Both the position numbers and the translations under genes were made by a program. Of a stretch of 64,000 nucleotides of DNA, positions 11,857 to 18,169 are shown piece after piece (position 1 is the first letter of the stretch; each line of letters starts with the position of its first letter). Below the pieces are notes generated by a model. That model was not told where the DNA came from. It was given only the letters and a program-made list of their open reading frames with translations, and did no database searches. Source of the stretch: Leifsonia poae (lineage in GTDB: Bacteria > Actinomycetota > Actinomycetes > Actinomycetales > Microbacteriaceae); the NCBI RefSeq assembly GCF_027921845.1, contig NZ_BSEN01000015.1, positions 630,636 through 694,635 of the forward strand. The letters run 5' to 3'.

Positions 11857-13698
<1,842 letters not shown>

Positions 13699-13717: not shown

Positions 13718-13765
13718 AGAACTCCGGAACTCGTCGGTCTCAGGGCCTTGGAGTTCCGGAGTTCT
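13718..13765. terminator. Hairpin between convergent leuA and TRIC-channel genes
   Basis: Arms 13718-13732 and 13751-13765 are perfect 15-bp complements (AGAACTCCGGAACTC and its reverse complement) around an 18-nt loop. It lies between convergent genes and could end transcription from both sides. There is no T-run, so Rho-independent function is uncertain. Confidence 0.55.
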
Positions 13766-15412: not shown

Positions 15413-16218
15413 GCCCCAAGCCCTACACGCACAAAGACGCGGTGGAGTTCCGCCCGCTCGACTGGACGGGTCTGTATCCGCCCGAGCTGCCGATCTCCGC
15501 TGTGCCCGAGCACGTGGCGGTCGTGATGGACGGCAACGGACGCTGGGCGAACGCGCGCGGGCTCACCCGCATCGAAGGGCACCGCGCGGGCGAGGCAGCC
15601 CTGCTCGACGTGGTCGCCGGAGCGGTGCAGATCGGCGTGAAGCACCTGAGCGTGTACGCGTTCTCCACGGAGAACTGGAAGCGGTCGCCCGAAGAGGTGC
15701 GCTTCCTCATGGGCTTCAACCGCGATGTGCTGCACCGGCGCCGCGACCAGCTGAACGAGTGGGGCGTACGCGTGCGCTGGGCCGGTCGCAAGCCGCGGCT
15801 CTGGTCGTCCGTGATCAAGGAACTGCAGTTCGCCGAGAAGCTGACGGCCGGCAACGACGTGCTCACCCTCACGATGTGCGTCAACTACGGCGGTCGCACC
15901 GAGATCGCGGATGCCGTGCGCACGCTCGCGTCCGAGGTGGCCGCCGGTCGCCTGAAGCCGTCCGCAATCACCGAGAAGAGCATCCAGCGCCACCTGTACG
16001 CGCCCGAGCTGCCGGATGTCGACCTGTTCGTGCGCAGTTCGGGGGAGCAGCGCACCAGCAACTTCATGCTCTGGCAGAGCGCCTACGCCGAGATGGTGTT
16101 TCTCGACACGCTGTGGCCGGACTTCTCCCGCGTCGATCTGTGGCGCGCGATCGAGCTGTACGCGGGGCGCAACCGCCGGTTCGGCGGTGCGGTGGACGCG
16201 CCGGGAATGCCCGGCTGA
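15409..16218 (+). CDS. uppS: Polyprenyl diphosphate synthase (cis-prenyltransferase, UppS)
   Basis: This 269-residue enzyme carries all cis-prenyltransferase blocks: [13 protein letters not shown] with the catalytic Asp, GHRAG, the [10 protein letters not shown] segment, and [20 protein letters not shown] near the C-terminus. It extends farnesyl or geranyl diphosphate with isopentenyl units to make the lipid carrier for peptidoglycan and other envelope polymers. The final chain length cannot be judged. ATG 15409 overlaps the recO stop by 4 nt, so it is translated with recO. Confidence 0.95.
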
Positions 16219-16239: not shown

Positions 16240-16947
16240 GTGAGTGAACCCATCAAGATCGACATCTGGTCCGACATCGCCTGCCCGTGGTGCTACATCG
16301 GCAAGCGCAAATTCGAAGCCGGCAGCGGCCTGTTCGCCGGCACCGGCGACGACCGGGCGGTCGAGGTGGAATACCACTCCTTCGAACTCTCGCCCGACAC
16401 CCCCGTCGACTTCGACGGCAGCGAGATCGACTTCCTCGCCGGCCACAAGGGCATGCAGCCCGCACAGGTCTCGCAGATGCTGGAGCGCGTCACCGGCATC
16501 GCGTCATCGGTGGGTCTCGACTACGACTTCGACGTCCTGAAGCACACGAACACCGTGAAGGCGCACGAACTCCTGCACTTCGCGAAGGCGAACGGAAAGC
16601 AGCTGGAGCTCTCCGAGCGGCTCTTCCGGGCGTACTTCACCGAGGGCCGCCACATCGGGCGCGTCGACGACCTCGTCGACCTCGCCGTCGAGGTCGGGCT
16701 CGACCGTGACGCTGCGCGTGCGGCTCTGAGCTCGGAGGAGTTCCTCTCCGACGTGCGGGCCGACCAGGCATTGGCGCAGGAGTACGGCATCCAGGGCGTT
16801 CCGTTCTTCGTGATCGACGGCCGCTATGGGGTGTCTGGTGCCCAGGACGCGGCGACGTTCGCGCAGGTGCTCGAGCAGGTGTGGTCGGAGCGAGCTGCGG
16901 GCGCCGGAGCCGCCGCGGACGCTTCGGGTGCCGAGGTGACCGCGTGA
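16240..16947 (+). CDS. DsbA family oxidoreductase (FrnE-like)
   Basis: The 235-residue thioredoxin-fold protein opens with IKIDIWSDIACPWCYIGKRK. The CPWC active site and the closing IQGVPFFVIDGRYGVSGAQ block with cis-Pro are typical of the cytosolic FrnE/DsbA-like branch. No signal peptide is present. GTG 16240 is used as start; TTG 16228 is possible. Substrates of these proteins are mostly unknown; some aid oxidative stress tolerance. A small Cys-containing ORF overlaps its stop. Confidence 0.93.
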   Translation: MSEPIKIDIWSDIACPWCYIGKRKFEAGSGLFAGTGDDRAVEVEYHSFELSPDTPVDFDGSEIDFLAGHKGMQPAQVSQMLERVTGIASSVGLDYDFDVLKHTNTVKAHELLHFAKANGKQLELSERLFRAYFTEGRHIGRVDDLVDLAVEVGLDRDAARAALSSEEFLSDVRADQALAQEYGIQGVPFFVIDGRYGVSGAQDAATFAQVLEQVWSERAAGAGAAADASGAEVTA

Positions 16948-17111
16948 CCGCGGCCGAGGTCGCGGGCGCCGGCCTCGCCGCATACCCCGCTGAGGCTCCC
17001 GCGGCGCCTGCCGCTCCCGCGGCTCCTGCGACCTTCTCGCTGATCCCGCTCGGCGACGCGAACGCCGTCGTCTGCGACGGCGACTCCTGCGTCATCCCCG
17101 CCGCCGACTAG
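16944..17111 (+). CDS. Small Ala/Pro-rich ORF ending in a two-cysteine motif
   Basis: A 55-residue ORF starts at GTG 16944, overlapping the stop of the DsbA-like gene by 4 nt. The first 30 residues are almost only Ala and Pro. The end reads LGDANAVVCDGDSCVIPAAD, with cysteines six residues apart. No homolog is recognised. Coupling to a thiol oxidoreductase makes the paired cysteines suggestive of a redox partner or metal ligand, but that is inference. The GCG-rich repeats could also be a chance ORF. Confidence 0.5.
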   Translation: MTAAEVAGAGLAAYPAEAPAAPAAPAAPATFSLIPLGDANAVVCDGDSCVIPAAD

Positions 17112-17132: not shown

Positions 17133-17191
17133 ATGAGGGGTCCAGACACGCCGTTCGATTGTCGATCTCGCGGCGCGTCTGGACCCCTCAT
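17133..17191. repeat. Palindromic repeat, copy 1 (beside DUF559 gene)
   Basis: The 21-nt arms (17133-17153 and 17171-17191) pair except for one A/C position, around a 17-nt loop. The right arm contains the stop codon of the DUF559 gene. Copy 2 at 18094-18146 has the same core (ACACGCCG against CGGCGCGT), the same mismatch and the same loop length. Confidence 0.85.
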
Positions 17192-18033
17192 TTCGGTGTG
17201 AGCGCCTGCCGCACGCGATTCACCGCTTCATGCGCATTGTTGCGGAGGTGGGCGCGGTCGAGGCGGACCAATTGCCACCCGGCGTTCTGCATTCTCCAGT
17301 GGCGGTCCACGTCTGCCGAGTACTGCGCAGGATCCGATCGATGGTGATCTCCGTCGTATTCGACGACGACGCGTGCTCCTGTGTACACGAGATCCCCGAA
17401 GCCGATGAACGAATCCCGGCTATCGAGGATCGCGATGTTGACCCCCGGCTCGGGAAGACGAGCGCGAATGAGGGCAAGTCGCAGCCGCGTCTCCATCGGG
17501 GAGTCGGTGCGTGGGCGGATCAATCGGAGCGCCCGCCGAAGCCGATCCACCCTCGGACGGTCTGTCGCCGCTTCGACTGCCATCCGGAGCGCATCGGGTT
17601 CGGTCAACGGATTCTTCCGACGCAGGAGCGCGTCTCCTGCGCAGACCAGGTCGTCACCCTCGAGCAGGCTGGCGAGCTCGCACCACACCTCCACGGCTTG
17701 CGGCACGCGAAGTCCTGACCGGATTCGCAGCGAATCCTGGTCGATCCGGAGTCTGTGGCCGATGACACCCGCTCCTTTTGGTGCGCGGCGCGGTGCGACC
17801 GTCGAGATATGCAGCTCCGCCTTCCGCTCGATCTCGCGGGGCAGACAGAGACCATAGATCCGAGCAGCTGTGGTGTGGCTGAAGAATCGCTCGACTCCCA
17901 TCCTCGCCTGAGCGGCATGGCAGCGGTCGAAGAGCTCAGCTTCGGCAGAGGCGAGCTCGGCCGCGTCCGGCTCGGTCGAGCCGCGCGAGCTCGATCGTCT
18001 CGTCGAGGGCTGCGGGGATGGTGCGGCTCGCAT
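17188..18033 (-). CDS. DUF559/Vsr-like endonuclease-domain protein with AbiEi-like N-terminus
   Basis: The 281-residue protein starts at ATG 18033, with GGTGGG a few nt upstream; an open extension to 18117 lacks a signal. Residues about 50-120 resemble the AbiEi-type antitoxin module (SHTTAARIYGLCLP...HISTVAPRRAPKGAGVIGHR). The C-terminal part has the PD-(D/E)XK-like core of DUF559/Vsr proteins: ETRLRLALIRARLPEP, then VVVEYDGDHHR, and a closing WQLVRL. Such solitary proteins are frequent in Actinobacteria and their role is not established. Both ends lie against matching palindromic repeats, and the stop codon lies inside one of them. Nuclease activity is inferred, not shown. Confidence 0.85.
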   Translation of the reverse strand: MRAAPSPQPSTRRSSSRGSTEPDAAELASAEAELFDRCHAAQARMGVERFFSHTTAARIYGLCLPREIERKAELHISTVAPRRAPKGAGVIGHRLRIDQDSLRIRSGLRVPQAVEVWCELASLLEGDDLVCAGDALLRRKNPLTEPDALRMAVEAATDRPRVDRLRRALRLIRPRTDSPMETRLRLALIRARLPEPGVNIAILDSRDSFIGFGDLVYTGARVVVEYDGDHHRSDPAQYSADVDRHWRMQNAGWQLVRLDRAHLRNNAHEAVNRVRQALTPK

Positions 18034-18093
18034 CGGCCCACCCTGGCACAGCCCGCGGGTCTTGCCCGAACGTTCTCCACAGTTCGGCGAATC

Positions 18094-18146
18094 AGGGGTC
18101 CTGACACGCCGTCGCATGCGTCGGTACGCGGCGCGTCGGGGCCCCT
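18094..18146. repeat. Palindromic repeat, copy 2 (upstream of DUF559 gene)
   Basis: Arms 18094-18111 and 18129-18146 pair with 15 Watson-Crick pairs, two G/T wobbles and one A/C mismatch, around a 17-nt loop. The core matches copy 1 at 17133-17191. It lies about 60 bp upstream of the DUF559 start codon. Confidence 0.8.
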
Positions 18147-18169
18147 TCTGCGTGCGGGAGGGAGGGGCG

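Follow-up and report, generated by a model that had tools for sequence, protein, structure and literature searches.

What ties a nuclease gene to the two similar palindromes at its ends? The question is raised by a locus of Leifsonia poae, which we analyzed within a stretch of 64,000 nucleotides (referred to here as the window). A DUF559-type nuclease gene lies there between dsbA (encoding a DSBA protein) and ybaK (encoding a tRNA_edit protein), with palindrome A at its 3′ end and palindrome B at its 5′ end (Table 1). An earlier note, made from the letters alone, had proposed that both palindromes belong to a repeat family tied to the gene, in a layout like that of REP elements and their partner enzyme.

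Two palindromes of one kind at the gene ends

Palindrome A consists of two 21-nt arms (95% complementary) around a 17-nt loop and, as the earlier note had stated, contains the stop codon of the nuclease open reading frame (ORF) (17188-17190). Compared in register, A and B share direct repeats of 22 nt (91% identity) and 20 nt (90% identity), both at a spacing of 958. By our reading, 16 of the 21 arm pairs of B are Watson-Crick pairs, and B scores under the cut-offs of the palindrome finder. Direct reading bore out that the two have the same 17-nt loop length and carry the same A/C mismatch at the identical place, which reads as a G-U pair on the gene strand. Folding of the two strands, compared to 200 shuffles, resulted in z values of -8.3 and -10.9 for A and of -3.7 and -4.1 for B. 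A search of the own genome with A returned B with an E value of 3.2e-5 and other full copies with E values of 1.2e-7, 1.1e-4, and 0.005. We counted seven dispersed copies in this genome (one of them half masked), and by coordinates none of the seven is near any DUF559 match. Their 17-nt loops are of unrelated sequence, and one of them can be read as 17 or 18 nt. A chance pairing of A and B was rejected on the basis of the repeat identity, the E values, the folding z values, and the enrichment of palindromes at gene ends described below.

ATG 18033 is the likelier start codon, because the alignments of most homologues begin no earlier than about residue 50 to 65 of the ORF. The claim that B lies just upstream of the start holds for this codon, B being located about 58 nt upstream of it, and fails for the first ATG (18117), which is overlapped by B. 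No intrinsic terminator with a short-loop G+C hairpin and a T-run was found between positions 16000 and 19000; terminators without a T-run are not excluded by this search. Rfam gave no match among 20 loci. Elsewhere in the window, another strong palindrome (13718-13765; 15-nt arms, 18-nt loop) stands right behind the ORF at 11926-13698 and is perhaps a terminator. A small ORF (16944-17111) overlaps the end of dsbA and terminates in GDANAVVCDGDSCVIPAAD; a sequence resembling the region of this ORF stands before ybaK in loci that lack the nuclease gene.

Table 1. Features of the nuclease locus, in positions of the window
Feature	Position	Strand	Remarks
Palindrome A (3′ palindrome)	17133..17191	.	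Arms 17133-17153 and 17171-17191; 17-nt loop 17154-17170
Nuclease ORF	17188..18117	-	Likelier start ATG 18033 (281 aa)
C-terminal nuclease domain	17191..17508	-	Residues 176-281 from ATG 18033; Vsr/I-Bth0305I-type fold
N-terminal AbiEi-antitoxin-like domain	17515..17940	-	Residues 32-173; 6y8q and PADLOC AbiEi
DnaA-box-like motif TTCTCCACA	18073..18081	+	Between palindrome B and likely start codon
Palindrome B (5′ palindrome)	18091..18149	.	Arms 18091-18111 and 18129-18149; 17-nt loop 18112-18128

A probable nuclease with an AbiEi-like domain

In Pfam, the window protein matched DUF559 with its C-terminal part (23.0 bits; cut-off, 20.6) and MTES_1575 with 29.2 bits, under the cut-off of 38.2. 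An AlphaFold2 model was computed from 90 homologues (taken from 120 readable translations, with the window protein replacing one) and reached a pLDDT of 93.3 and a pTM of 0.87. Residues 178 to 281 of the model matched the catalytic domain of I-Bth0305I (3r3p) with a Z of 10.0 (2.8 Å, 95 residues); the next structural matches of the nuclease domain were 3hrl (Z 9.1) and Vsr (1cw0; Z 8.6, 22% identity), and its profile matches were 3hrl (E 7e-4) and 3r3p (E 0.0034). Residues 32 to 173 matched the AbiEi antitoxin 6y8q (Z 8.3 over 129 residues; chain residues 55 to 195), and the PADLOC AbiEi model matched 48 of the 90 family members, among them the window protein (E 1.4e-4). The tool warns that a Z near 8 can mean a common arrangement; sequence profiles back both domains. 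The fold assignment rests on VIA-align and on the profile matches, since Foldseek by itself gave only a weak match (3r3p, E 0.033) and its top matches were partly spurious (mitoribosomal chains). E181, D214, and D241 are invariant in the 90 proteins, and H231 is kept in at least 90% of them. We tentatively take these four to be the residues of the EDxHD motif, an assignment made without a position-by-position alignment to any known member. Going by the model, the gene product is probably an AbiEi-like domain joined to a Vsr/EDxHD-type nuclease, whose cleavage of DNA is inferred.

No signature of a HuH tyrosine transposase was present in the results of Pfam, NCBIfam, and PADLOC, which gave mainly DUF559, MTES_1575, and AbiEi. 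A toxin gene (AbiEii) was not found beside the focal gene, the only locus considered in this respect. PHROGs matched one of four proteins, to a family of unknown function. Searches with the window protein returned no phage record and only three plasmid records, all larger than 0.7 Mb; the gene is mostly chromosomal.

The orthologous site beside ybaK

The ybaK gene was found in 27 of the 28 genomes of the genus. The nuclease gene adjoins it in 18 of these 27 loci and is absent from 8, and the remaining locus (L067) runs into the end of its contig. On the far side of the nuclease gene, dsbA was found in 17 of the 18 loci; the exception (L056) is truncated where its contig ends. At a finder score of at least 13, both palindromes were detected in 11 of the 18 orthologous loci, one palindrome in 6, and none in 1 (L056); the window locus is counted among the 6 because palindrome B scores below 13. 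In the eight gene-less loci, dsbA and ybaK are separated by 103 to 248 nt without any palindrome of the family; an unrelated 14-nt hairpin lies there in L051, and a weak one lies farther away in L060. For the nine species in which both ends could be read by pattern, the arms agreed at 11.19 of 14 positions within the same gene, compared to 7.80 between species (0 of 10,000 permutations over the nine loci). As far as this comparison reaches, the two palindromes of one orthologue match each other and diverge between species.

Paralogues carry palindromes of their own

Searching the own genome with the window protein resulted in eight genes at an E value of at most 1e-27. A different strong palindrome stands at one or both ends of six of the seven paralogues, while L029 has only a weak one; the paralogue L028 has a copy of its own palindrome at either end, like the focal gene. 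Two genes of this genome that were matched by Pfam only (L037, above the cut-off, and L040, below it) have no palindrome at either locus.

A search of the genus with the window protein produced 108 matches (our sum), spread over 27 of the 28 genomes. At least one palindrome was found in 77 of the 97 genes analyzed: at both ends in 34, at the 5′ end only in 27, and at the 3′ end only in 16. Some of the 20 genes without any are cut by contig ends, and slightly different end zones led to 44 rather than 34 genes with palindromes at both ends. Nine further loci were scanned only; six showed a strong palindrome and three none, with positions unchecked. The 5′ zones (45.0 kb) yielded 60 strong palindromes (score of at least 14) and the 3′ zones (22.1 kb) yielded 61, a total of 121 in 67 kb, compared to just one each in the gene bodies (67.8 kb) and the distal flanks (191 kb). 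Elsewhere, there were 5 in the 64-kb window and 28 in 400 kb of genome G006.

For the 44 genes with two ends to compare, the similarity of the 5′ palindrome was 19.0 to the 3′ palindrome of its own gene and 6.3 to those of other genes. The own 3′ palindrome was the best or tied match in 29 of the 44 (0 of 10,000 permutations). Arms were more often alike at higher protein identity: the fraction of gene pairs whose arms are similar was about 0 below 45% protein identity, 0.27 at 45 to 65%, 0.70 at 65 to 75%, and 0.95 at 75 to 85%, and above 85% it was 8 of 8 (91 genes, 4,095 pairs; Spearman, 0.30; Mantel, 0 of 1,000).

Spacing and a DnaA-box-like motif

Palindromes of the gene family are mostly about 45 to 75 nt long. 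Examples compared by eye have equal or nearly equal total lengths at both gene ends despite differing centers (62/62 at L193, 58/58 at L195, 61/60 at L028, and 70/70 at L173 when trimmed to the homologous outer ends). In G024, one spacer is 17 nt and the other is 18 nt. A search for the window family that tolerated spacers of 3 to 33 nt gave a spacer of 17 or 18 nt from ACACGCCG to CGGCGTGT in 148 of the 150 (75 plus 75) matches listed. The motif [AG][AC]ACGCCG occurs in 19 of 127 palindromes of other paralogues, at 5.5 to 7 nt from the center in 18 of the 19.

A DnaA-box-like motif stands a few nucleotides from the 5′ palindrome of DUF559-type genes. Of 126 genes, 104 have YYVTCCACA in their 5′ zone, compared to a background of 0.07 per zone; of the 122 boxes, 94 are in reverse orientation and 46 are exact TTATCCACA. 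In an unbiased k-mer count, 64 of 77 5′ palindromes had TCCACA at most 60 nt away on the side facing the gene (expected, 1.7), and none of the 65 copies away from 5′ ends had it within that distance. That the motif is a DnaA box is our assumption from its resemblance to the consensus, and a promoter element is not excluded.

The layout in the order and the class

At the level of the order, 62 of 119 genomes had a match at 1e-15, and the 29 loci that were read carried both palindromes in 13 cases, the 5′ one only in 3, the 3′ one only in 3, and none in 10. A profile search of the class found family proteins in 141 of 197 genomes sampled. We read 20 of these loci, which are the best scoring of their genomes and no random sample: both palindromes were present in 10, the 5′ one only in 5, the 3′ one only in 2, and none in 3. 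Four of the 20 are from the same order, three of which (L269, L279, and L292) are genes already read as L244, L251, and L261. By our count, the 16 loci outside the order divide into 9 with both, 4 with the 5′ one only, 2 with the 3′ one only, and 1 with none. Judged from these loci, the palindrome-bracketed layout of the nuclease gene recurs in other orders of the class. The sole match of a contig scan with the window protein, a distant locus in a Chloroflexi MAG (L068), was not used.

Copy number usually follows the cognate gene

Besides those at the genes, genomes contain dispersed cognate palindromes, up to 63 in one genome. A strict pattern of the window family had 5, 11, 14, 0, 16, 17, 10, 19, 47, 2, 24, 26, 26, 28, 8, 11, 50, 23, and 35 matches in the 19 genomes with the gene and 0, 0, 0, 9, 2, 0, 0, 0, and 0 in the 9 genomes without it (Mann-Whitney P = 7.7e-5, relatedness not corrected for); a reversed-pattern control had 0 to 2. 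Copies at the gene are included where they fit the pattern. G002 was scored as having the gene by L164 on another contig, and G027, without any DUF559-type match, as lacking it. Among the genomes with the gene, the zero count belongs to G004 and the count of 2 to G017; the flanking palindromes of both have a changed core. In seven related species, the ACACGCCG family had 16, 10, 26, and 11 copies with the gene, compared to 0, 0, and 0 without it.

A second family, AAACGCC...GGCGTTT, was picked after it had been sighted beside the own nuclease of G006. It had 49, 19, 14, and 3 matches in four genomes whose nucleases form a clade (75 to 84% identical), 33 in G020, which has a sister nuclease (68 to 73%), and 0 to 5 in the other 23 genomes (reversed control, 0 to 2). 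These matches include nested double hits (three in G006, two in G007, and one in G010). High counts in G006 and G007 had been predicted beforehand and were confirmed; those in G023 and G020 were unforeseen. With G020 placed among the gene-less genomes, the Mann-Whitney P value was 0.0015. The nearest nuclease of G020 (L179) has a related but different palindrome despite the 33 matches. Another family of the class, from nucleases flanked by GATCATGG, had 63, 51, 46, 20, 14, 10, and 1 matches in seven genomes and 1 each in two genomes of another genus and in the own genome (control, 0); in a few of the 14 matches of G323, the palindrome does not extend past the pattern.

When dispersed copies share the gap length of the own locus, they are much like that locus, which ranked first of 17 in G001, G002, and G009, second in G005, and third in G000 (n = 3) and G010 (n = 1). 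Copies with the other gap length are unlike it (ranks 5, 5, 15, and 16), and in our reading they represent orphan families. Dispersed copies of the G004 palindrome had been predicted, but none were found by its own pattern, which had two matches in G004, both at the gene, and 0 to 3 in other genomes; G017 and G307 also have few copies. G008 has nine window-family copies without a gene at this locus. For the families of G008 (L124 to L128, L147, and L148) and the 17-nt-gap copies of G009, no matching nuclease was seen among the DUF559-type genes read; they were possibly left over after gene loss. The earlier note had suggested searching the genome and its relatives for the palindrome and for its co-occurrence with DUF559 genes. 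By the counts obtained, copy number usually follows the cognate gene, with G004, G008, G017, G020, and G307 as exceptions.

Dispersed copies at gene 3′ ends

An ORF heuristic placed 44 of 65 copies between convergent genes, 16 between tandem genes, 2 between divergent genes, and 2 inside an ORF, with 1 unclassified; 87% of random positions are in ORFs. The 65 include L131, which stands at the own nuclease gene of G001; by coordinates, the fetched dispersed copies other than L131 are far from DUF559 genes. Comparison across the copies showed that they appear near-fixed in length and mostly at gene 3′ ends. The earlier note had named many loci unrelated to DUF559, with the palindrome as a plain terminator, as an outcome that would refute the association. 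This is literally true of the dispersed copies, but the association is not refuted, because REPs are distributed likewise (PMC3733652). Part of the explanation is probably a terminator role.

In the sister species G021 and G019, all six single copies with both flanks alignable (89 to 97% identical) are shared. A tandem palindrome array at the same site in both has six copies in G021 (L299:9596-10257) and five in G019 (L309:10704-11360), so arrays turn over and single copies stay. When G005 (gene present, 16 copies) was compared to G006 (no gene here, 0 copies), 11 of 15 sites mapped with both flanks and 4 remained unmapped. Of the mapped sites, G006 is cleanly empty at three (L095, L098, and L101), carries the palindrome of its own nuclease family at two (L097 and L100), another hairpin at two (L099 and L102), no palindrome at one (L096), and longer different DNA at three (L093, L103, and L104). 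Empty sites, for which the earlier note had suggested a search, do exist; the target duplications expected with them were not recognized by eye at the three clean ones, with flanks about 85 to 94% identical. The two sites with an exchanged family suggest that the palindrome of the resident nuclease can take over a hairpin site at a gene 3′ end. Independent insertion at favored sites would look identical.

Pairing within the palindromes

In 70 window-family copies, the two arms agreed at 10.31 of 14 positions, compared to 9.93 after right arms were reassigned within genome and gap class (10 of 5,000), and they agree mostly via a common half-site. Loop pairing was above expectation at 8 of 8 positions in 18-nt loops and at 6 of 8 in 17-nt loops (equal or below at 2). 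For 31 of 51 copies of G280, pairing inside the fixed ends was 0.679, compared to 0.576 with the right halves exchanged (0 of 5,000), and several positions showed three or four types of pair. The 31 were hand-picked 55-nt copies in the orientation listed, some near-identical ones being omitted, and the contrast is inflated because at least two subfamilies are among them. Seven of the 14 G323 matches gave 0.737 compared to 0.644 (76 of 5,000). Besides the half-site, selection probably also acts on pairing as a hairpin or cruciform. On the gene-sense strand, 3′ palindromes have 55 G-U and 31 A-C mismatches (P = 0.013), and 5′ palindromes have 39 and 46. This weakly indicates a role of the palindromes at the RNA level.

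A proposed REPtron-like system with a different enzyme

Genome comparison shows the co-occurrence of gene and matching palindromes across the class and a palindrome family that in most cases goes with the resident nuclease. Any action of the enzyme on the palindromes, by binding, cutting, or movement, is inferred from sequence alone. The association with the gene that the earlier note had proposed gained support from bracketing at orthologues and paralogues, from matching ends, and from copy number. On balance, we incline, by a small measure, to regard the unit of palindrome, DnaA-box-like motif, nuclease gene, and palindrome as a REPtron-like system with a non-HuH enzyme. The AbiEi-like, EDxHD/Vsr-like protein would recognize its own palindrome, either as two half-sites at fixed spacing or as an extruded hairpin, and would cut the DNA there. 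Repair from another copy would keep the two ends alike. Through such repair, other hairpin sites at gene 3′ ends might occasionally receive the palindrome or be overwritten by it, in a homing-like conversion. At such sites, copies could persist as bidirectional terminators or 3′-end hairpins, and the gene itself, mostly chromosomal, would be vertically inherited, like RAYT/TnpA-REP genes. Homing-like conversion is favored over simple transposition because of the two exchanged-family sites. The broader proposal is put forward tentatively, with a little less than an even chance in our judgment. It states that a class-wide, vertically inherited AbiEi-like/EDxHD nuclease maintains its own hairpin population by homing-like conversion, with several such pairs per genome and expression tied to replication via a DnaA box, as an independently evolved counterpart of REP/RAYT.

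A system of binding sites without mobilization seems unlikely, although it is the likeliest of the alternatives. The protein would then be a regulator or an architectural or defense protein, the gene-flanking palindromes would be operators for autoregulation, and the dispersed copies would be further sites spread by descent and point mutation. AbiEi antitoxins autoregulate through inverted repeats. The half-site consensus kept largely independently in the two arms (10.31 compared to 9.93), the 17/18-nt spacing of the half-sites, and the stability of the copies between G019 and G021 would all fit this explanation. However, operators alone leave the copy at the stop codon unexplained, and neither the sites occupied by the palindrome of another family nor active-site residues that are invariant across 90 proteins would be expected of them. 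The AbiEi match is, moreover, limited to chain residues 55 to 195, which the DNA-binding part of AbiEi presumably precedes.

Plain transcription terminators, alike through shared ancestry or composition, appear improbable as the explanation. The preponderance of convergent sites (44 of 65, with 16 tandem and 2 divergent), the excess of G-U over A-C mismatches at 3′ but not at 5′ palindromes, and the different hairpins at some orthologous sites (4 of the 11 mapped in G006) are what terminators would show. They do not account for the palindrome upstream of the gene, the matching of the two ends beyond that with other genes, the 17/18-nt loops and shared loop motif, or the absence of the family from most gene-less genomes, and no T-run terminator was found around the focal gene. 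Shared terminators as the whole story were rejected, since copy number follows the gene and the ends match their own gene. An ordinary transposable element, with the palindromes as IS-like ends and the dispersed copies as MITEs moved by the nuclease or an unlinked transposase, is about as improbable: a gene with like ends and dispersed end-like copies, a whole unit of about 1.1 kb present or absent at one site, and clean empty sites speak for it, but no target duplication was recognized at the three empty sites, each of the 18 loci with the orthologous gene has it next to ybaK, the six testable single copies are common to the sister species, and the window protein found no phage record and only three large plasmid records.

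Comparison with known systems

No earlier report of a partnership between nuclease and palindromes was found in the open-access literature searched, and none of the open-access DUF559 papers, judged by title and the start of the abstract, concerns palindromes. The nuclease-palindrome system proposed here would give a class of dispersed palindromic repeats a candidate owner and solitary DUF559-type proteins a testable function. If the nuclease does act on the palindromes, REP-like repeat populations arose at least two times with unrelated enzymes. The near-fixed spacing, cognate specificity, and co-divergence constitute a ready substrate set for biochemistry.

I-Bth0305I and EDxHD homing endonucleases share the fold of the catalytic domain, and the conserved E, D, H, and D may correspond to their motif; the focal gene has no intron or intein context and is intergenic between palindromes. 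The AbiEi antitoxin of type IV toxin-antitoxin systems resembles the N-terminal fold, which is here fused to a nuclease, between dsbA and ybaK and without a toxin gene. E. coli Vsr and the Caulobacter VsrA, a DUF559 Vsr-like protein (PMC12907096), share the Vsr fold and DUF559; the present protein differs by the extra AbiEi-like domain, the palindromes, and neighbors (dsbA and ybaK) other than a methyltransferase. The TIRtron, a tyrosine transposase gene with terminal inverted repeats, is likewise decorated by repeats of its own type, which may form a moderately abundant family and overlap the gene ends (PMC3733652), whereas the nuclease here is of another fold.

The closest parallel is the REPtron, in which a TnpA-REP/RAYT gene is flanked by palindromes that are also dispersed and whose abundance correlates with the gene; this gene is usually a single copy of its type and has not been seen to move (PMC8266576, PMC3733652), and REPs lie mostly between convergent or unidirectional genes (PMC3733652). 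Both systems have an enzyme gene between cognate palindromes and dispersed copies that correlate with the gene and lie mostly between genes in convergent or unidirectional orientation. The REPtron enzyme is a HuH tyrosine transposase, and the one described here is an EDxHD/Vsr-type nuclease with an AbiEi-like domain. REPtron palindromes carry a GTAG (or CGTC) tag at their foot; GTAG was found in the outer 14 nt of only 6 of 155 palindromes here, and the palindrome length of mostly about 45 to 75 nt, together with the DnaA-box-like motif beside the 5′ palindrome, is a further difference. Given the unrelated enzyme and the lack of a GTAG tag, the proposed system would work like a REPtron without being a member of that group.
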